DNA of 35,458 nucleotides from Actinomycetota bacterium. Lineage in GTDB: Bacteria; Actinomycetota; AC-67. A program made the translations under genes and the position numbers. The number at the start of each line of letters is the position of its first letter. The first letter of the stretch is position 1. The stretch is taken from contig JBBDRM010000130.1 in the NCBI GenBank assembly GCA_040905475.1, positions 55,579 through 91,036 on the forward strand. The letters run 5' to 3'. Shown here one piece after another: positions 15,900 through 31,358 of this stretch. The notes below the pieces were generated by a model. That model had not been told where the DNA came from, did not search any database, and worked only from the letters and a program-made list of their open reading frames with translations.

Positions 15900-16565
15900 C
15901 TAGACTCCCATCGCGGCGCCGGTCGCAGGATCGACCTGCCGCGCGTCCATGCCCGCCAGCTGGACGAGAACGTCCACCGTCCACGTCGACGCCTTGAACT
16001 CGGGCTTCGGCGCCGGCTTGGGCTTCGGCTTGGGCTGTGGCTTCGGTGCCGGCGCCGAGGAAGTGCTGGGCTTCGGCGCCGACTTCTTCACGACCGGCTT
16101 GGGTGCCGGGCTGGATGAGGAGGGGCGACCGGCGAAGACCTCGGTGACGTAGACCGTTCCGTCGCTGACGACGACGCCGACGCCGATCTGGTTGTAGTCC
16201 TTGTCGAGGATGTTGGCCTTGTGACCCGGCGAGTCCATGAACGCGTTGTGGATGGACGAGCACGACGGGCCCATCCCGACGTTCTCGCCGAGGGCCCACC
16301 AGTTGCCGGAGATCTGATCGCCGAGCTTGCTGTTGTGGTAGATCGTCTCGTCGGCGGCCATGTCTTCACTGTGGTTTCGGGCATTCGCCACGAGGTCGCT
16401 CTTCACGACGAGCTTTGGACGGCCGACGGCCGAACGCTCGGCGTTCAAGGAGTTGACGAAGCAGGATTCGTAGCTAGAGAGTGCGCTCGCCGACGGAGCT
16501 GCGAGGGCGATGAAGGCCGCGGCGAGCGCCGCGACCATCGTTACCGTGATCGTTCGCTTTCCCAT
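15900..16565 (-). CDS. Secreted CAP-domain (SCP-like) protein under c-di-GMP riboswitch
   Basis: This 221-residue protein has a signal peptide (cleavage near residue 28, SASA-LS), a CAP/SCP domain at about 30-146 (LNAERSAVGRP, NHSEDMA, GENVG, FMDSPGHKANIL, YVTEVF), a lysine/proline repeat linker (about 150-190, PKPQPKPKPKPAPKP) and a short C-terminal segment (STWTVDVLVQLAGMDARQV). CAP domains in bacteria are secreted or wall-bound; their biochemical role is mostly unknown. The Lys/Pro linker looks fitted to span the cell wall. A class I c-di-GMP riboswitch lies in its leader about 115 bases before the ATG. A hairpin places the ribosome binding site in its loop right before the ATG, so expression should follow cyclic di-GMP level. 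Confidence 0.93.
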   Translation of the reverse strand: MGKRTITVTMVAALAAAFIALAAPSASALSSYESCFVNSLNAERSAVGRPKLVVKSDLVANARNHSEDMAADETIYHNSKLGDQISGNWWALGENVGMGPSCSSIHNAFMDSPGHKANILDKDYNQIGVGVVVSDGTVYVTEVFAGRPSSSSPAPKPVVKKSAPKPSTSSAPAPKPQPKPKPKPAPKPEFKASTWTVDVLVQLAGMDARQVDPATGAAMGV

Positions 16566-16594
16566 CTGTTCGGCCCCTCTTCCGGCCGGAACAG
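16566..16594 (-). promoter_or_regulatory. Ribosome-binding-site hairpin before the CAP gene
   Basis: In the mRNA, CUGUU-C-CGGCC pairs with GGCCG-AACAG (ten pairs, one bulged C). The loop GGAAGAGG carries the Shine-Dalgarno purines, and the hairpin ends one base before the AUG. It is a likely part of the riboswitch expression platform acting on translation. Confidence 0.5.
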
Positions 16595-16679
16595 ACAGCC
16601 CGTCGTCCCCGAGCTTTCAGCATCCCCAGCTGAAATTCTCATGCCTCGAGGCCAACGGGCCTTGCGAACCCGTCGTCCC

Positions 16680-16765
16680 CATTCGGCAACCCGGCTGGCC
16701 CAGTGGTTCCTAGGGCTCCGTGGCTTTGCGTCCCCGTCTCGCGACGGGTTTGCCTTTGTCGTGGA
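16680..16765 (-). ncRNA. Class I cyclic di-GMP riboswitch (GEMM-I)
   Basis: Minus-strand RNA matches the GEMM-I consensus in order: GGCAAACC; the P2-type hairpin CCCGUC-GCGA-GACGGG with a GNRA tetraloop; GGACGCAAAGCC directly after it; a second hairpin AGCCC...GGGCC; then AGCCGGGUUGCC closing against GGCAAACC. These are the signature parts of the c-di-GMP aptamer. It lies in the leader of the CAP-domain gene. Whether binding turns expression on or off cannot be read by eye. Confidence 0.93.
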
Positions 16766-17041
16766 GACTGACTGTCTTCCGGATATCAATGAACACTTCG
16801 ACTATCGATCAGCACTGTGAGTATCGGGGCCGCGCTCCGATCGCTTGACCACGCATAGTGACTATCCCTCTAGCTCATTGTCGCTACCTCCGCGGCAGTG
16901 GACGCCCGGTTCGCCCCAGGAACGTGCGAACCGAGCGGGGCGGAGCTCGTCCGAGTTGATGGTGTTGGCCCTGCTTCCGGCTCCGGCCGTAGACTGCGCG
17001 CGCGTCGAACACCGGCCGTGAAAAACAGGACCGTGGTCCCG
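16766..17041. other. Intergenic region between riboswitch leader and flavoprotein gene
   Basis: This should contain divergent promoters: one for the riboswitch transcript (minus) and one for the flavoprotein operon (plus). An AT-richer patch lies at 16770-16880. An open frame covers 16898-17041 in frame with the flavoprotein, but its sequence (Arg/Ser-rich) does not resemble the family N-terminus. No promoter could be fixed. Confidence 0.35.
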
Positions 17042-22807: not shown

Positions 22808-24076
22808 GTGTCGGTCCTGGTCGTAGGCCTCACGTACCGCAAGGCGCCGGTCGAGTTGCTGGAGCGCTTCGCCTTCGACCAGTCCGGGTTGCTCAAGGGG
22901 TTGCATCAGCTCGTTTCCGCCGAGCATGTGCGCGAAGGGGTCATCCTTTCGACCTGCAACCGGACCGAGGTCTACGCACTCGTGAGCGGGTTCCACGCCG
23001 GGCTCGCCGAGCTTCGCCGCTTCCTCGCCGAGTTCCACCACGTGCCGGCCGAGGAGTTCGGCGCGTTGCTCGTCTCGCACTACGAGGAGGACGCGGTTTC
23101 GCATCTGTTCTCGGTTGCGAGCGGCATCGACTCCATGGTGGTGGGCGAGCCGCAGATCTTGTCCCAGGTGCGCGAGTCCTACCGGGTCGCCGGCGAGGAA
23201 GGCGCAGCGGGTCCGGTCCTCTCGGCGCTCTTCCGTCAGGCCATCCGTGTCGGCCGTCGCGCCCGCTCGGAGACCGGGATCGGGAGATCGGTCAAGACCT
23301 ACGCCGGAGCCGGGGCGGATCTTGCGCGCGAGGCTCTCGGCACGCTCGACGGGAAGACGGTGCTGGTCGTCGGCGCCGGGAAGATGAGCGACGTCGCCGC
23401 GCGACGCATGGCGCGCGAGGGGGCGACGGTTCTCGTGGCGAACCGCACCACCTCACGCGCGAAGGCGCTCGCAGATCGGATCGGCGGGGAGGAGCTGCCG
23501 ATGACGTCGTTGGACGAAGGGCTGGCGCGCGCCGACCTCGTGCTCTCATCGACCGGAAGCTCCCAGCCGGTGATCACGCGCGAGCTCGTCGCCGGGGCCT
23601 TCGCGACCCGCGTCGACCGGCCGCTCGTGTTTCTCGATCTCGCCGTGCCGCGCGACGTGGAACCGTCCGTCGCCGAGATCGACGGCGTCGTCGTCCGCGA
23701 TCTCGACGATCTCCGCGAAGCGCTCGCGCCCGGGCCCGACCAGCTACGTGAAGTCGGTCGCGTGCGCGACATCATCGAGGAGGAAGTGCCACGTTTCACG
23801 CGGTGGCAGCGATCGCATCATCTCGCCCCGCTCCTCGAAGCGCTGCAGGCGCGCGGTGAGCAAGTGCGCGACCGCGAGGTCAAGCGCGCGATGGGCCGGC
23901 TGGCTCGCTTGAGCGACGCCGAGCGCGAGGCCGTCGAGGCACTCGCCCGCTCCATCGTGGCGAAGCTCTTCCACGGGCCGGTCACCGCGGTGAAGCTGGC
24001 TGCCGGGACGGCAGACGGAGAGGCGCTCGCGCGCGCGCTTCGAGACCTTTTCGACCTGCCGGATATCGAGCGGTAG
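22808..24076 (+). CDS. hemA: Glutamyl-tRNA reductase
   Basis: This 422-residue enzyme makes glutamate-1-semialdehyde from glutamyl-tRNA with NADPH, the first committed step of C5-pathway haem synthesis. Seen are the catalytic Cys50 in LSTCNRTEVYAL, GEPQILSQVR, a Rossmann motif VLVVGAGKMSDVAARR, and a C-terminal dimerisation helix region. It starts with GTG 22808; GGGGGGAAG lies just upstream. Partner hemL is at 30.1 kb. As part of the Rex-controlled operon, its level should rise when NADH accumulates. Confidence 0.97.
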   Translation: MSVLVVGLTYRKAPVELLERFAFDQSGLLKGLHQLVSAEHVREGVILSTCNRTEVYALVSGFHAGLAELRRFLAEFHHVPAEEFGALLVSHYEEDAVSHLFSVASGIDSMVVGEPQILSQVRESYRVAGEEGAAGPVLSALFRQAIRVGRRARSETGIGRSVKTYAGAGADLAREALGTLDGKTVLVVGAGKMSDVAARRMAREGATVLVANRTTSRAKALADRIGGEELPMTSLDEGLARADLVLSSTGSSQPVITRELVAGAFATRVDRPLVFLDLAVPRDVEPSVAEIDGVVVRDLDDLREALAPGPDQLREVGRVRDIIEEEVPRFTRWQRSHHLAPLLEALQARGEQVRDREVKRAMGRLARLSDAEREAVEALARSIVAKLFHGPVTAVKLAAGTADGEALARALRDLFDLPDIER

Positions 24077-24088
24077 GGTTCCCCGCGG

Positions 24089-25012
24089 ATGCCGCGAAGC
24101 GTGCTGCGCGTAGGGACGAGAGGGAGCGCGCTTGCGCTCGCGCAGGCAGAGAACGTTCGCAAGGCCATCTCCCAGGTGATCTCGCACCGCAATTTCGAGC
24201 TCGTGCCGATCACCACGAGCGGCGACACGCATCAGGGACCGCTTCCGGCGATCGGCGGCAAGGGCTTGTTCACCGCAGATATCCAAGAGGCGCTCGCCAC
24301 CGCGAGGATCGACCTCGCGGTGCACAGCGCCAAAGATCTCCCGGCAACAACCCCGGAAGGTCTGGTGCTCGCCGCGATCCCGCCCCGTGAGGATCCGCGG
24401 GACGCGTTGATCACCCGGCACGGTGGAGGGCTCGCGAAGCTCGCCCCGGGAACGACGGTCGGAACATCGTCCCTTCGCCGAAGCGTTCAGCTGCTCGCGC
24501 TCGGCAAGGGGCTGGTTCCCACGTCGATCAGGGGGAACGTCGACACCCGCTTACGTAAGCTCTCGGCGGGCGAGGTGCAGGCGCTCGTCGTCGCACTCGC
24601 CGGTCTCAAGCGCCTGGGCAAGGACGGGCGCGTCGCGGAGGTGCTTCCGACGTCGGTGATGCTTCCCGCTCCGGGACAGGGGGCGCTCGCGGTCGAGTGC
24701 CGGGCCGGCGACAAGGACATGCGCGAGGCGCTCTCCAAGATCGAGGATCCGCTCGCGCGCCGCGCGTTCGAGGCGGAGCGCACGTTCTTGCTGGCGCTCG
24801 GCGGATCGTGCAACGTTCCGCTCGGCGCCCTTGCCACACTCGACGGGAACGAGATCCGGCTGCGCGGGCTGGTCGGAACGCTCGACGGTTCGCGCATCAT
24901 CCGCGACGAGGTCCGTGGAACGGACCCGGCGTCCGTCGGCGAAGCGCTCGCGGACCGGATGCGCGCCGCCGGCGCGGCAGAGATCATCGCCTCGCTCGAG
25001 GCGGAGGCGTGA
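24089..25012 (+). CDS. hemC: Hydroxymethylbilane synthase (porphobilinogen deaminase)
   Basis: This 307-residue enzyme polymerises four porphobilinogens. It has LRVGTRGSALALAQA at the N-terminus, the catalytic Asp83 in VHSAKDLP, TSSLRR (125-131), IRGNVDTRL and the dipyrromethane cofactor cysteine Cys241 in GGSCNVPLG. Full length for the family. It starts 12 bases after hemA; its stop overlaps the GTG start of cobA-hemD. Confidence 0.97.
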   Translation: MPRSVLRVGTRGSALALAQAENVRKAISQVISHRNFELVPITTSGDTHQGPLPAIGGKGLFTADIQEALATARIDLAVHSAKDLPATTPEGLVLAAIPPREDPRDALITRHGGGLAKLAPGTTVGTSSLRRSVQLLALGKGLVPTSIRGNVDTRLRKLSAGEVQALVVALAGLKRLGKDGRVAEVLPTSVMLPAPGQGALAVECRAGDKDMREALSKIEDPLARRAFEAERTFLLALGGSCNVPLGALATLDGNEIRLRGLVGTLDGSRIIRDEVRGTDPASVGEALADRMRAAGAAEIIASLEAEA

Positions 25013-26544
25013 GCCGGAAGAGATCCCCGCGGATCCCCGGGACGGTCTACCTGGTCGGCGCCGGGCCCGGCGATCCGGGATTGATTACCGTTCGAGGGCT
25101 CGCCGCGCTTCGCTCGGCCGACGTGGTGGTGTACGACCGGCTCGGCGTGTCCCCGGCGCTGTTGGATCATGCCCCACGAGCAGCCGAGCGGATCTTCGCC
25201 GGAAAGAGCGCGCGCAAGCACGCGATGACCCAGGCGCAGATCAACCGGCTCCTCGTGTCCAAGGCCCGCGCGGGTGCGTCCGTCGTCCGTCTCAAAGGCG
25301 GCGACCCATTCGTGTTCGGCCGGGGCGGCGAGGAGGCCGAGGCACTCGCGAAGGCCGGCGTCCCGTCCGAGGTCGTTCCCGGCGTCACCTCGGCGACGGC
25401 CGGGCCTGCCGCCGCCGGGATCCCGGTGACGCACCGCGACTGGGCGGCGTCGGTCGCGATCGCGACCGCGCACGAAGCCCCGGGCAAGGCGGGGTCGCGC
25501 CTGGACTGGGAGGCGCTCGCGCGCGCCGACACCGCCGTTCTGCTTATGGGCGTCGAGCGGCTCGCGGACGTCTCGAAGGCGTTTATCGCCGCGGGGAAGC
25601 CGCGCTCGACGCCGGCGGCCGTGATCGCGTCGGCGACGCTGCCCTCGCAGCGGACGGTCACCGCGCCGCTGTCGCGCATCGCGACGGCCGCGAGGCGTGC
25701 GCGGATCGAGCCGCCCGCGATCACCGTGGTCGGCGACGTCGTGCGGTTGCGCGAGCTGCTCGGCGGCTGGGACACTCGTCCGCTTTCCGGCGCGCGCGTG
25801 CTGGTCACCCGTACCCGCGAGCAAGCCGGCGAGCTGTCCGGCGTGCTGCGCGAGCTCGGCGCCGAGGTGATCGAGGCGCCGGCGATCAAGGTCGAGCCGC
25901 CGCGATCCTGGGCGGCCGTCGACCGTTCCGCCCGGAAGCTCGCCGACGGCGCGTACTCGTGGGTCGTCTTCACCAGCGCGAACGGCGTGCGGTTCTTCTT
26001 CGCGCGGCTGCGCGCGGCGCGGCTCGACGCTCGAGCGTTCGGACGCGCACGGGTGGCCGGGGTGGGGACGGGTACGGCGGCGACGTTGCGCGCCTTCGGC
26101 ATCGAGCCCGACCTCGTTCCGCCGACGTTCACGACCGAGGCGATCGGAAAAGCGTTCCCCCGTGGGGCGGGCCGCGTGCTGCTCGCACGAGCCGACAAGA
26201 CGGAGCCCGGCCTCGGAGAGGCGCTTCGCGCGAAGGGTTGGACGCCCGAACGGGTCACCGTCTACCGGCTGCGGCGGGTCGCTCGCTTGGATCCGCCGGT
26301 GCGGCGGGCGGTGCTCGCCGGCGAGATCGACATCCTGACGTTCGCGAGCGGCGGGACCGTTCGCGCGTTCATGGGCCTGCTCCACGGGAAGCCGCCTCGC
26401 CGCGTGCTGGTCGCGTGTATCGGGCCGGTGACCGCGCGCGCCGCCAAACAGGCCGGTCTGCGCGTGGACGTCGTCGCCCGCGAGCACACGATCCCGGGCC
26501 TCGCCGCCGCCGCAGCGCGCGCCTTCGCGAAGCGCCGGCGCTGA
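25009..26544 (+). CDS. cobA-hemD: Fused uroporphyrinogen-III methyltransferase and uroporphyrinogen-III synthase
   Basis: This is a two-domain enzyme of 511 residues. Residues about 10-255 are CobA/SUMT: VYLVGAGPGDPGLITVRG, VVYDRLG, RLKGGDPFVFGRGGEE and VPGVTSATAGPAAAGIPVTHR, with a SAM site. Residues about 260-505 are HemD (VLVTRTREQAGELSGVL, VVFTSANGVRFFF, FASGGTVRAF, CIGPVTARAA). The HemD half makes uroporphyrinogen III; the CobA half diverts it to precorrin-2, so both branches (haem and sirohaem/cobalamin) start from one protein. Such fusions are common in actinobacteria. The start is GTG 25009 in a GTGA overlap with hemC; GGAGG lies just upstream. Confidence 0.95.
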   Translation: MSRKRSPRIPGTVYLVGAGPGDPGLITVRGLAALRSADVVVYDRLGVSPALLDHAPRAAERIFAGKSARKHAMTQAQINRLLVSKARAGASVVRLKGGDPFVFGRGGEEAEALAKAGVPSEVVPGVTSATAGPAAAGIPVTHRDWAASVAIATAHEAPGKAGSRLDWEALARADTAVLLMGVERLADVSKAFIAAGKPRSTPAAVIASATLPSQRTVTAPLSRIATAARRARIEPPAITVVGDVVRLRELLGGWDTRPLSGARVLVTRTREQAGELSGVLRELGAEVIEAPAIKVEPPRSWAAVDRSARKLADGAYSWVVFTSANGVRFFFARLRAARLDARAFGRARVAGVGTGTAATLRAFGIEPDLVPPTFTTEAIGKAFPRGAGRVLLARADKTEPGLGEALRAKGWTPERVTVYRLRRVARLDPPVRRAVLAGEIDILTFASGGTVRAFMGLLHGKPPRRVLVACIGPVTARAAKQAGLRVDVVAREHTIPGLAAAAARAFAKRRR

Positions 26545-26551
26545 GGCAGGA

Positions 26552-27766
26552 TCAGGCTGCCGGAGCCACCGGCTCGTCCGTGCGGGGTGGAGTCATCCGT
26601 CGGACGAAGAAGGCGGCGACGAGCGCCGGGATCGTCAACACCACGACGGCGACATGCGGGTTGAACGCATCGGCAAGCGCCCCATCGATGACGGCGGCGA
26701 GGACTCGCGGCCCGAGGAAGCTCACCGACCATAGGGCCATCACCCGGCCGCGCAACCGCTCCGGTACGTCCTCCTGGATCGCGGTCGTGAAGGCGATCGC
26801 GGCCGTGATGTAGCCCGCGCCGGTCAGCACGCTCGCCGGGATCGCGGCCGCGATGTTCGGTGCAACTCCTAGCGCACCGAGACCGGCGGCTTGCGCGATC
26901 AAGCCCGCCCAACCGAGGCCGTGCTTCGTCGCGTAACGGATCCACGTGCGCCCGAGCGTGATCGCGAGCACCGCGCCGCCGCCCCACGCGGACACGATCC
27001 AGCCGGCGCCTCCCTCGGGGAGCCCGTACACGTCGGCGAGCGCCGGTGAGAGCGTGAGGATCGGGTCGAGAGACATCGCCATCGCCATGACGGCAAGAAG
27101 CATCGTTCGCGTCCGCTTGTGCCGCCACGCGTAGACGAGCCCGTCGCGGATGCGACCCGGTTCGCCGTCCCGCTCGCGCAGATAGGGTGGGCGGCCGATC
27201 ATCACGAGCACCGCGATCAGCGCGATGTACGAGAATGCGTTGACCGCGAACGCGAGCCCGACGCCCGCGCCGGCGATGGTCACCGCCGCCAGGACGGGAC
27301 CCACGGCGCGCGCGAGGTTGAAGGTGAGCGCGTTCAATCCGATCGCCTCGGCCAGCTCGTCTTGCGGGACGAGTGAAGGGATGACGGACTGCATCGCCGG
27401 GAGCCCGATCGCGATCGTGATGCCGAGGCCGAAGGCGATCGCGACGACGGCGTAACGGTTCGCGGCGTTCAGCGCGACCAGGATCGCGAGCACGCCGGCG
27501 AGCGACCCGGCCAGGATCTGTGCACCGGCCAGGAGGCGAAGGCGGTCCGTCCGGTCGGCCCAGGCACCCGCAGGGATCGCGAACAGCAGAACGGGAACGA
27601 AGAGCGCGGCGTTCGTCAGGCCCACCCAAAGCGATGATCCCGTGAGGTCCAGCATGTAGACGCCGAGCGCGACGTTCGCGAGCCACGTCCCCACGTTCGA
27701 CGACACGTTTCCGAGGAAGTACAGGCGAAATTCTCTGCGTGCGAGGGGTCCGGTGAGCTGCCGCAT
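26552..27766 (-). CDS. MFS transporter (MFS_3/EntS-like)
   Basis: This 404-residue integral membrane protein has about 12 spans. GAWADRTDRLRLL between spans 2 and 3 is the MFS signature loop. The N-terminal REFRLYFLGNVSSNVGTWLANVAL is typical of the MFS_3 group (enterobactin exporter EntS relatives). It is inverted within the tetrapyrrole gene run: its stop is 7 bases from the cobA-hemD stop and its start about 30 bases from hemB. It may export a porphyrin, haem precursor or siderophore; this rests on position only. A generic drug exporter is the alternative. Confidence 0.88.
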   Translation of the reverse strand: MRQLTGPLARREFRLYFLGNVSSNVGTWLANVALGVYMLDLTGSSLWVGLTNAALFVPVLLFAIPAGAWADRTDRLRLLAGAQILAGSLAGVLAILVALNAANRYAVVAIAFGLGITIAIGLPAMQSVIPSLVPQDELAEAIGLNALTFNLARAVGPVLAAVTIAGAGVGLAFAVNAFSYIALIAVLVMIGRPPYLRERDGEPGRIRDGLVYAWRHKRTRTMLLAVMAMAMSLDPILTLSPALADVYGLPEGGAGWIVSAWGGGAVLAITLGRTWIRYATKHGLGWAGLIAQAAGLGALGVAPNIAAAIPASVLTGAGYITAAIAFTTAIQEDVPERLRGRVMALWSVSFLGPRVLAAVIDGALADAFNPHVAVVVLTIPALVAAFFVRRMTPPRTDEPVAPAA

Positions 27767-27788
27767 GGTGGCCGGGAGCCTACCGCGA

Positions 27789-27794
27789 TACCCT
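27789..27794 (+). promoter_or_regulatory. Putative -10 box of leaderless hemB (TACCCT)
   Basis: TACCCT ends 7 nt before ATG 27802, the same spacing as TACGCT before the GTG of hemL. There is no Shine-Dalgarno sequence before hemB. This fits a leaderless transcript starting at ATG 27802; no clear -35 is seen. Confidence 0.4.
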
Positions 27795-27801
27795 GATGGC
27801 G

Positions 27802-28794
27802 ATGCCCCGATTCCCGATCGCTCGTTCGCGGCGCCTGCGCGCCACGCCGGCGCTTCGCCGTCTGGTCCGCGAGACGACGCTCGGCGTGAACGACCTCGTC
27901 GCGCCCCTTTTCGTCAAGGAAGGCATCGCCGACCCACAGCCCATCGAGTCGATGCCGGGTCAGTCCCAACACACCCTCGAGTCGCTCCGCAAAGAGGTCT
28001 CGGAGATCGCCGCCCTCGGGATACCGGCCGTGGTTCTGTTCGGTGTTCCCGCGGAGAAGGACGGGCGAGGCTCGGGGGCCGATCGCGAGGACGGGATCGT
28101 TCAACGCTCGCTGCGCGAGCTGCGCTCGGACGTCGGTGACGACGTCGTGCTGATCGCGGATCTTTGCCTCGACGAGTACACCGATCACGGCCACTGCGGC
28201 GTCCTGACCCAAGACGGCCGTGTCGACAACGACGCGACCGTCGAACGGTACCGCTCGATCGCGGCGAGCCAGGCCGCCGCGGGCGCGCACATCGTCGCGC
28301 CGAGCGGGATGATGGACGGACAGGTGGCCGCGATCCGGGACGCGCTCGACATCGCCGGGTTCGCGGAGACCCCGATCATGGCGTACGCGGCGAAGTTCGC
28401 CAGCGCCTTCTACGGTCCGTTCCGAGAGGCGGCCGAGTGCGCGCCGCGGTTCGGCGATCGGGCCGCGTATCAGATGGATCCGCCCAACGCCGATGAAGCC
28501 GTTCGGGAGGCCCTCGCCGACGTGGAGGAGGGTGCCGACATCGTCATGGTGAAGCCGGCACTCCCGTACCTGGACGTGGTGCGGGCGGTGCGCGATGCGA
28601 CGCGCGTGCCGGTGGCCGCCTTTCACGTCTCCGGCGAGTACGCGATGCTCAAGGCGGCAGCCGAACGCGGCTGGCTGGACGAGCGCCGCGCGATCGTCGA
28701 GTCGCTCACCGCGATCCGCCGCGCCGGCGCGGACATCGTCCTCACCTATCTGGCGAAGGAAGCAGCGGCCATCCTCAAGAACGGAGACTACTGA
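27802..28794 (+). CDS. hemB: Delta-aminolevulinic acid dehydratase (porphobilinogen synthase)
   Basis: This enzyme of 330 residues (332 if started at ATG 27796) joins two 5-aminolevulinates to porphobilinogen. The N-terminus MPRFPIARSRRLRATPALRRL is typical. Counting from 27796, the metal site reads LCLDEYTDHGHCG (Cys124, Asp126, Cys134), where the middle cysteine of the three-cysteine zinc site is Asp. The Schiff-base lysines are Lys201 (AYAAKFASAFYGPF) and Lys254 (MVKPALPYLD). Metal use may therefore differ from E. coli. I prefer ATG 27802 because of the -10-like box 7 nt upstream. An aldo/keto reductase gene follows within 2 bases. Confidence 0.96.
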   Translation: MPRFPIARSRRLRATPALRRLVRETTLGVNDLVAPLFVKEGIADPQPIESMPGQSQHTLESLRKEVSEIAALGIPAVVLFGVPAEKDGRGSGADREDGIVQRSLRELRSDVGDDVVLIADLCLDEYTDHGHCGVLTQDGRVDNDATVERYRSIAASQAAAGAHIVAPSGMMDGQVAAIRDALDIAGFAETPIMAYAAKFASAFYGPFREAAECAPRFGDRAAYQMDPPNADEAVREALADVEEGADIVMVKPALPYLDVVRAVRDATRVPVAAFHVSGEYAMLKAAAERGWLDERRAIVESLTAIRRAGADIVLTYLAKEAAAILKNGDY

Positions 28795-28796
28795 GC

Positions 28797-29792
28797 ATGC
28801 GCTACCGAACGTTCCCTGGAACCGACATCACCGCTTCCGAGATCGGCTTCGGTGCGTGGACCGTCACCGCCGGATGGTGGGGCGACTACACCGACGACCA
28901 AGCGACCGCGCTGATCCGCAAGGCGCTCGAGCACGGCATCACGTTCTTCGACACGGCGCCGACATACGGCGCGGACGGCCGCGGCGAAACGATCATCGCC
29001 GAGGCGCTCCGAGACCATCGAGATGAAGTCGTCTACTCGACCAAGGTCGGCTACGACACCGAGATGGAATGGAAGCCGGAAGGACACCAAGAAAGGCCGC
29101 ACAACCTGGACCCGGCCGTGGTTCGGCGCTCGGTCGAGGCCTCGTTGCGCCGTCTCGAGACGGATCGGATCGATCTGCTACAACTCCACAACCCGCGCAT
29201 GGACCACCTCCGGCGCGACGAGGTGTGGGATCTGCTGGAGAACCTGAAGGGCGAGGGGAAGGTGCGCGCATACGGGATCGCGCTCGGTCCCGCGATCGGT
29301 TGGCGCGACGAGGGCGTATGGGGGATCGAGAACCGTCACCTCGACGCGCTGTTCATCATCCACAACCTGCTCGAGCAGGACCCCGGTCGTGAGTTCATCG
29401 ACGAAGCACGCAAACGTGACGTCGGCGTGATGGTCCGGGTTCCGCACTCCAGCGGGTTGCTGGAGGGGAAGTACACCAAGGACACCACGTTCGACGAGAA
29501 CGACCACCGCTCGCATCGCAAGCGCGAATGGCTCGTTAACGGGCTACGGAAGCTCGAAAAACTCGGTTTCCTGACGGATGACCGAGGTATGACCATCGGT
29601 CAGGCCGCGCTCAAATGGCTGCTGGCGGATCCCCTGGTCGTGACGGTGCTTCCGAACATCTATGACGATGCCCAGCTGGTTGAGTTCGCGGACGCGTCCG
29701 GAGCCCCGGACCTCACCGACGACGACCTCAGCCGGATCGCCGATCTCTACGACAACGATTTCTATCTCGCACCGGCAGGCGCCGACGCCTGA
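28797..29792 (+). CDS. Aldo/keto reductase
   Basis: This 331-residue TIM-barrel NADPH-dependent oxidoreductase has FFDTAPTYGADGRGE (catalytic Asp and Tyr), VVYSTKVG (catalytic Lys), RLETDRIDLLQLHNPR (catalytic His) and IGQAALKWLL near the C-terminus. The substrate is unknown. It starts two bases after the hemB stop and GGAG lies about 10 bases before its ATG, so it is co-transcribed with hemB. A link to tetrapyrrole or haem-related redox repair is possible but unproven. Confidence 0.93.
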   Translation: MRYRTFPGTDITASEIGFGAWTVTAGWWGDYTDDQATALIRKALEHGITFFDTAPTYGADGRGETIIAEALRDHRDEVVYSTKVGYDTEMEWKPEGHQERPHNLDPAVVRRSVEASLRRLETDRIDLLQLHNPRMDHLRRDEVWDLLENLKGEGKVRAYGIALGPAIGWRDEGVWGIENRHLDALFIIHNLLEQDPGREFIDEARKRDVGVMVRVPHSSGLLEGKYTKDTTFDENDHRSHRKREWLVNGLRKLEKLGFLTDDRGMTIGQAALKWLLADPLVVTVLPNIYDDAQLVEFADASGAPDLTDDDLSRIADLYDNDFYLAPAGADA

Positions 29793-29796
29793 ATCC

Positions 29797-30045
29797 GTGA
29801 CACGGAGCGAGGCTCGCTGGACACCTCGCGCGCGCAAGCTCGCCGCCGTCGTGTTCCTTTCGTTGGCCTTTGCGGCACTCGTCGCCGGGATCATGGGCGC
29901 CGTCTGCAACGAGCCGTCGCTCGACTGTCTTCGCGATGAGGGTCGGAACGCCGTTCGCATCGCCGTGGTCTCTGTGCCGTTGATCGCCTACGCGACCTAT
30001 CGGTTCACGCGCGGTGGACGTGGAGGGCGCGACGGCCACGCGTAG
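29797..30045 (+). CDS. Small two-span membrane protein, unknown
   Basis: This 82-residue frame starts at GTG 29797, four bases after the aldo/keto reductase stop. It has two hydrophobic spans (about 16-36 and 53-67) separated by a short loop with two cysteines ([15 protein letters not shown]), and a basic Arg/Gly-rich tail. The longer frame starting upstream is antisense-like, out of frame with the reductase and can be ignored. No family recognised. The position suggests it belongs to the hemB operon. Confidence 0.6.
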
Positions 30046-30061
30046 CCGGGCGTTCTCCCGC

Positions 30062-30067
30062 TACGCT
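30062..30067 (+). promoter_or_regulatory. Putative -10 box of leaderless hemL (TACGCT)
   Basis: TACGCT lies 7 nt before the GTG start of hemL. The sequence between has no purine-rich ribosome binding site. This agrees with leaderless initiation, common in actinobacteria. No good -35 box is visible. Confidence 0.4.
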
Positions 30068-30074
30068 TAACCGC

Positions 30075-31358
30075 GTGACCCGTTCCGAAGACCTGTTCGA
30101 CCGCGCGCGCCGTGTCATCCCCGGCGGCGTGAACTCACCGGTCCGCGCGTATCGCGCCGTCGGAGGCGTGCCCCCGTTCCTAATTCGCGGACGGGGCGCC
30201 TCCGTCACCGACGTCGACGGCAACACATACGTCGACTACGTGCAGTCGTGGGGGGCGATGATCCTCGGGCACGCGCACCCGCGAGTGGTTGCGGCCGTGA
30301 AGGATGCCGTCGAGCGGGGGTCGTCGTTCGGGGCGCCCACGCCGGGGGAGGTGGAGCTTGCCGAGCGGCTGAGCGCGGCGGTCCCGAGCATCGAGAAGGT
30401 GCGGCTCGTCTCTAGCGGGACCGAAGCCACCATGAGCGCCGTTCGTCTGGCACGCGGTTTCACCGGCCGGCCGAAGGTGATCAAGTTCTCCGGGTGCTAC
30501 CACGGACACGCCGACGGGCTGCTCGCGCGCGCCGGGTCCGGCGTCGCCACGTTCGGGCTCCCGGACTCGCCCGGGGTGACCCGGGCGCAAGCGTCCGACA
30601 CCCTCGTCGTGCCGTTCAACGACACGGCCGCGGTCGAGACGGCGTTCGACCGTGCGAAGGACGCGATCGCAGCCGTTATCGTCGAGCCGGTGGCGGCGAA
30701 CATGGGCGTCGTCCCCGCCGCGCCGGGCTTCCTGGAAGCCACGCGCAAGCTGGCCGAAGCGAACGGCGCGCTGCTGATCTTCGATGAGGTCATCACCGGC
30801 TTCCGGGTCGGCGCCGGCGGCGCGCAGGAGCGGTTCGGGATCGTTCCCGACCTGACGACGCTCGGGAAGATCATCGGTGGGGGCTTGCCGGTCGGCGCGT
30901 TCGGTGGTCGAGCCGACGTGATGTCGTTCCTCGCTCCCGAAGGGCCGGTGTATCAGGCCGGCACGTTGTCGGGAAACCCGCTCGCCGTGGCGGCCGGGCT
31001 CGCCGCGCTCCAGGAGCTCGCCGACGATCCCCCGTACGCGCGGCTCGAAGCCCTCGCCGAACGGCTGGCCGGCGGTTTGGCTGCGACCGCGCGCGACGCC
31101 GGCGTGCCGGTGACCGTCAATCGCGAGGGGTCGCTCTTCTCGCTGTTCTTCACGGCCGAGCCGGTCTCGGACTTCGAGACCGCGTCACGTCAGGACACGG
31201 TAGGGTTCGCGGCGTTCTTCAACGCCATGCTCCGGCATGGCGTCTGGCTCCCGCCGAGCGCCTTCGAAGGGTGGTTCCTCGGCGCGGCGCACACCGAGGA
31301 GGACGTCGAGCGCACGCTCGAGGCTGCCGGCGAAGCGTTCCGCGGATCGGTCGGCTGA
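30075..31358 (+). CDS. hemL: Glutamate-1-semialdehyde 2,1-aminomutase
   Basis: This 427-residue PLP enzyme of the class III aminotransferase type makes 5-aminolevulinate from the HemA product. Marks are [12 protein letters not shown] at the N-terminus, [38 protein letters not shown] and PLP lysine Lys265 in [17 protein letters not shown]. It starts with GTG 30075 without a Shine-Dalgarno sequence. It ends 10 bases from the convergent cytochrome operon. Confidence 0.97.

Follow-up and report, generated by a model that had tools for sequence, protein, structure and literature searches.

Class-I aptamers for c-di-GMP are known from switches of either sign. In the Cd1 OFF switch of Clostridioides difficile, as described in the portion of PMC9262584 that deals with it, an antiterminator competes with aptamer and terminator, which are themselves compatible; in the pilM ON switch of the same portion, aptamer and terminator are mutually exclusive. 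In Actinobacteria, c-di-AMP riboswitches of the ydaO type are known to precede cell-wall genes, according to the relevant part of PMC9960051, so that control of envelope proteins by a cyclic dinucleotide is a familiar theme. With regard to ligand specificity, part of PMC6274999 deals with a class-I aptamer carrying the G20A mutation and bound to cGAMP, and the label c-di-GMP-I-GGC appears in PMC12452182 and PMC9943018, in the pertinent passages of which the ligand is not tested.

In the window, i.e., the whole stretch of 35,458 nucleotides analyzed here, cmscan returns a single Rfam match above gathering. It is RF03167 (c-di-GMP-I-GGC) at 16763-16681 of the minus strand, covering the full model (1-80) with 72.1 bits against a gathering score of 59 and an E-value of 2.2e-15. 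At the same place, RF01051 (c-di-GMP-I, clan CL00126) reaches 68.7 bits, well beyond its gathering score of 35, and thus passes the class-I threshold. The preliminary description had placed a class-I c-di-GMP (GEMM-I) riboswitch at 16680-16765, which is borne out by both models in the Infernal search, with scores far above threshold and with coordinates that were correct to within two bases. What had to be corrected is the model label, the best model being that of the GGC variant, whose distinguishing base is absent here. A chance aptamer was rejected on the basis of the E-value and of the absence of the riboswitch family from all of the 14 control genomes. The riboswitch is real and of an already known kind.

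The aptamer lies 115 nt upstream of the start codon of a CAP gene (gene start at 16565, same strand), the target that had been named before. The PF00188 match of its product (62.1 bits, cut-off 21.1) comprises residues 38-141 and profile positions 2-114 of 117. The N-terminus is signal-like as judged by eye; the CAP domain is followed by a Pro/Lys/Ser-rich stretch, corresponding to the Lys/Pro-rich stretch of the preliminary description, and then by a short conserved tail. In the CAP proteins of the class this C-terminal tail resembles VLVQLxGMDxxxVDPATG (window 15900-15987, minus strand) and belongs to no Pfam family. With a 34-residue query, the tail was matched in four of five genomes at E-values up to 1, the match in G002 (E 0.6) not being significant; significant matches occur only in CAP proteins, namely, two in G000 and others in G001 and G004, and nothing significant was found outside CAP proteins in the five genomes. 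Named relatives of the CAP protein amount to seven loci, six of them from Streptomyces, and a phmmer search against PDB sequences gave no relative of solved structure at E 0.001. The protein may act at the cell surface; the preliminary description had suggested a surface or adhesion function and a wall-spanning linker. Among the neighboring genes, a divergent FAD-dependent oxidoreductase gene (PF12831; 16898-18370, plus strand) adjoins the riboswitch, and in L013 and L015 a similar frame, judged by eye, lies next to the equivalent leader. Genes of haem synthesis, encoding glutamyl-tRNA reductase, a fused tetrapyrrole methylase/HemD, ALAD, and a class-III aminotransferase, are found at 22808-31358 of the window.

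The pairing of riboswitch and CAP gene is recurrent. The source genome contains two class-I riboswitches, both before CAP genes whose products are 64% identical, and five CAP matches, two of them preceded by a riboswitch. In the five genomes of the class that were covered, for which order and class searches gave the same set as the family search, there are eight riboswitches and 16 CAP matches, and CAP is encoded downstream of seven of the eight riboswitches; the remaining one (L018) is followed by a 422-residue frame unmatched by the CAP profile. In a phylum sample of 396 genomes, the riboswitch was found in 157 (E 0.001) and a CAP match in 261. The 151 riboswitch loci that were examined consist of the eight of the class and the best-scoring 143 others among the matches listed. 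Four of them have no frame of 60 residues within 450 nt downstream; among the longest frames at the other 147, the commonest Pfam matches are the pilin methylation motif (22), CAP (14), subtilases (11), and GH16 (10). A CAP profile built from eight of the downstream proteins and applied to as many as three frames at each locus detects CAP downstream of 17 of the 151 loci, seven in the class and ten elsewhere in seven families, hence in eight families in all. CAP matches number from one to eight per listed genome, and against a background of about one CAP gene in a thousand, as estimated from genome sizes and not from counted genes, the ten CAP loci among the 143 outside the class represent a marked enrichment. 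The link between riboswitch and CAP gene is beyond chance, and the GEMM sites before other CAP genes that the preliminary description had suggested looking for do exist.

Table 1. Elements of the leader and of the CAP gene in the window
Feature	Position	Strand	Basis
c-di-GMP-I aptamer (GEMM-I type), complete, with G20, A47, and C92 equivalents	16681..16763	-	RF03167 72.1 bits, RF01051 68.7 bits
Extended helix P1, 5' strand (GUC.GUCUCCA)	16762..16772	-	MFE and duplex with 16681-16672
P1 3' strand, shared with antiterminator	16672..16681	-	folds and duplex search
Antiterminator 5' strand (strand A), GGGGACGACGGGU, in which a 12-base direct repeat, GGGGACGACGGG, has its first copy	16668..16680	-	pairs with 16660-16648
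Switching strand (strand T), antiterminator 3' and terminator 5' strand, GCCCGUUGGCCUC	16648..16660	-	folds and duplex search
Terminator 3' strand (strand H), holding the second repeat copy (16610-16599)	16598..16614	-	duplex with 16660-16644
U-rich tail, UGUCUGUU, 5 U of 8	16590..16597	-	duplex search output
Hairpin immediately ahead of the start codon, with ribosome-binding site AGAGGGG in loop and 3' stem	16566..16594	-	leader MFE
Gene of CAP-domain protein, 221 aa, predicted secreted, with Pro/Lys-rich stretch and conserved C-terminal tail	15900..16565	-	PF00188 62.1 bits

The leader probably functions as a transcriptional OFF switch. At low c-di-GMP, strand A (16680-16668) would leave P1 and pair with strand T (16660-16648); the antiterminator formed in this way would block the terminator, and the CAP gene would be transcribed. 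Binding of c-di-GMP would hold P1 (16772-16762 with 16681-16672) and free 16660-16644, which would then pair with 16614-16598 and bring transcription to a stop at UGUCUGUU. The antiterminator pairing is present in the MFE structure of a transcript truncated before the terminator 3' strand, and its duplex energy of -19.7 kcal/mol is equaled by 5 of 2000 shuffles. For the terminator duplex (-27.9 kcal/mol), none of 2000 shuffles is as good. The terminator stretch of the window does not stand out from dinucleotide shuffles (z -1.58, with 13 of 200 matching it). A terminator scan, which admits loops of 3-8 bases only, did not report the platform; the loop here exceeds the upper limit. A promoter-like site was looked for in addition, and none was found.

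The same arrangement is found in the five leaders of the class that possess a long platform (the window, L002, L013, L014, and L015). The strands were compared by duplex energy since a MAFFT alignment of the five leaders misaligned the platform. After the aptamer, the order of strands A, T, and H is identical in all of them, and the P1 duplex and the terminator helix are each found in five of five. In the MFE structure of transcripts that end ahead of strand H, the antiterminator is present in every case; forcing 16660-16649 or its counterpart to stay unpaired raises the energy by 8.1-14.1 kcal/mol in the five leaders when no ligand is present. The stretch following the aptamer folds into the terminator in all five; for whole leaders, the MFE structure combines P1 with the terminator in four cases, and in L013 it retains the antiterminator. 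Folded only as far as the U tract, the leaders L002 and L014 adopt the terminator, and those of the window, L013, and L015 retain the antiterminator; this folding was unconstrained and took no account of ligand or tertiary contacts. Across the five leaders, 3 to 104 of 2000 shuffles are as good as the A-T duplex and 0 to 16 as good as the T-H duplex; the P1 duplex is less distinct (0 to 535) and not outstanding in L002 and L013. The z-scores of the terminator stretch in the four relatives are -5.8, -5.7, -3.1, and -2.5, and between 4 and 6 of the 8 bases after the terminator are U in the five leaders. For all three helices, pairings within a leader exceed cross-leader ones in average strength; the margin is small for P1 and the antiterminator, so that covariation support from the five sequences is modest.

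Computation thus yields an aptamer, a gene, an association between the two that is conserved, and, in five leaders, strands that exclude each other. In each of these leaders, P1 and terminator lie on different strands, and both are exclusive with the antiterminator. This is the strand logic of the Cd1 OFF switch, and c-di-GMP is therefore predicted to repress the CAP gene by termination. By analogy, the CAP gene is probably switched off at high c-di-GMP. Against an OFF terminator stand the weak U tract, which in the window is interrupted by G and C, the modest z-score of the window, and the disagreeing folds at the U tract. Terminator-like elements are seen in further leaders: the CAP leader L017 of the class has a terminator-like stem of -28.1 kcal/mol with a U run, and in L128, L141, and L152, outside the class, aptamer and gene are separated by strong hairpins followed by U-rich tails. 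In the class CAP leader L016, a terminator-like stem with a U run was not found.

It is conceivable, but unlikely, that control is translational, with the SD hairpin at 16594-16566 opening or not according to the state of the aptamer and without any termination. The folds of the leaders contain a hairpin whose base carries the SD (the SD duplex of the window leader amounts to -7.4 kcal/mol), and the poor U tract of the window would fit such a mode. CAP leaders from other families point in the same direction. In L045, L113, L144, and L112, the start codon follows the aptamer by 9-16 nt, and the SD would lie in or beside the P1 3' strand; because the unconstrained folds of these four leaders show a short P1 in L045 only, control by overlap of SD and P1 is something we infer. 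The CAP leaders outside the class also include L111, L165, and L166. In the window, however, no alternative pairing was seen by which the aptamer could act on the SD hairpin, this hairpin overlaps the U tract of the terminator with its 5' half, and the strand exclusivity that was found concerns the terminator. Repression by termination remains the preferred reading, and the SD hairpin before the start codon leaves room for a translational component.

An ON switch, by which c-di-GMP would raise CAP expression, is improbable. Switches of the pilM type exist on a highly similar aptamer, as stated in the portion of PMC9262584 devoted to them, and induction would suit a CAP protein acting as an adhesin; yet in pilM aptamer and terminator exclude each other, while here they occupy different strands and both exclude the antiterminator. 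If repression occurs as predicted, CAP would be a protein of the low-c-di-GMP state; this speaks against reading it simply as a biofilm adhesin whose expression c-di-GMP induces.

The ligand itself has to be considered in view of the Rfam label. The pocket positions, which we take to be numbered 20, 47, and 92, with A47 and C92 as pocket bases, are presumably also what the letters GGC stand for. The window aptamer has canonical pocket bases, i.e., G at 20 and A at 47 by pattern check and the C92 equivalent by eye. Where the consensus of RF03167 has a G at the position numbered 47, the alignment shows an A in the window, so that the variant type is unsupported for this aptamer, and c-di-GMP is the ligand predicted from the sequence. 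Among the 151 riboswitch loci of the phylum, the pattern gives A at position 47 in 150, and in L121, the only other, A was read by eye. Therefore, the GGC label reflects general sequence similarity and not a change in the pocket. A GGC-type variant that senses something other than c-di-GMP, for which the lead of 3.4 bits of RF03167 over RF01051 could be quoted, is most improbable in the face of this A47, and an altered ligand deduced from the Rfam label was rejected as unsupported.

At position 20, G is found by pattern in 138 of the 151 loci. In most of the 13 others the pattern itself failed; in L016 a T is inserted, and L118 and L120 have a true A. The latter two are near-identical riboswitches from one genus (L118:845-921 and L120:1501-1577, both on the minus strand; AAAGAGCAAACC). 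An A at this position is the change favoring 3',3'-cGAMP in class-I aptamers, and the pair would represent a possible cGAMP riboswitch in the phylum; the gene downstream appears by eye to encode a secreted glycosyl hydrolase.

Synthases of c-di-GMP, whose absence would have spoken against the riboswitch, are predicted in the source genome from six GGDEF matches above cut-off, one of them partial. Just upstream of the second CAP riboswitch of this genome, a partial EAL-domain frame (L002:180-830, plus strand, 117 bits) is found, the match ending at 153 of 236 profile positions, perhaps due to a frameshift or a degenerate gene. It is accompanied by a response-regulator receiver-domain frame (L002:856-1227, plus strand). 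EAL and receiver domains are parts that occur in c-di-GMP signaling.

CAP proteins are widespread among bacteria, and for most of them no role is known. A direct and recurrent c-di-GMP switch on their genes provides a handle on when CAP proteins are used, and the question of their timing becomes testable by a simple reporter. CAP as a target of class-I c-di-GMP riboswitches was not found in the literature searched, the scope of which excludes most subscription journals; the recurrent CAP target is apparently unreported and, along with the predicted OFF sign, constitutes the new part. The misleading variant label of RF03167 is new information as well, and RF03167 labels in the phylum are not to be taken as a sign of changed ligand specificity. 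As a more tentative generalization, somewhat short of an even chance, secreted CAP proteins might form a widespread c-di-GMP-repressed module in the phylum, extending over at least eight families with differing platforms (terminators; SD/P1 overlap) and comprising surface proteins of the low-c-di-GMP state.

Comparing the locus with known systems, RF03167 is the best-scoring model for the window aptamer but differs from it in the consensus G at 47, where the window RNA has A. Cd1, to the extent covered by the source portion cited above, shares with the window the class-I aptamer and a P1 3' strand that also takes part in an antiterminator with the terminator-forming strand; the ligand favors the terminator in Cd1, and the same sign is predicted for the window. 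Cd1, however, controls flagellar genes instead of a CAP gene, and the window platform differs by being GC-rich, with a long terminator stem containing internal loops and a weak U tract. The ydaO-type riboswitches, as presented in part of PMC9960051, likewise respond to a cyclic dinucleotide, precede genes of secreted envelope proteins, and are repressive, as is predicted here; they differ in aptamer and ligand, and their targets are NlpC/P60 and Rpf proteins and not CAP proteins.
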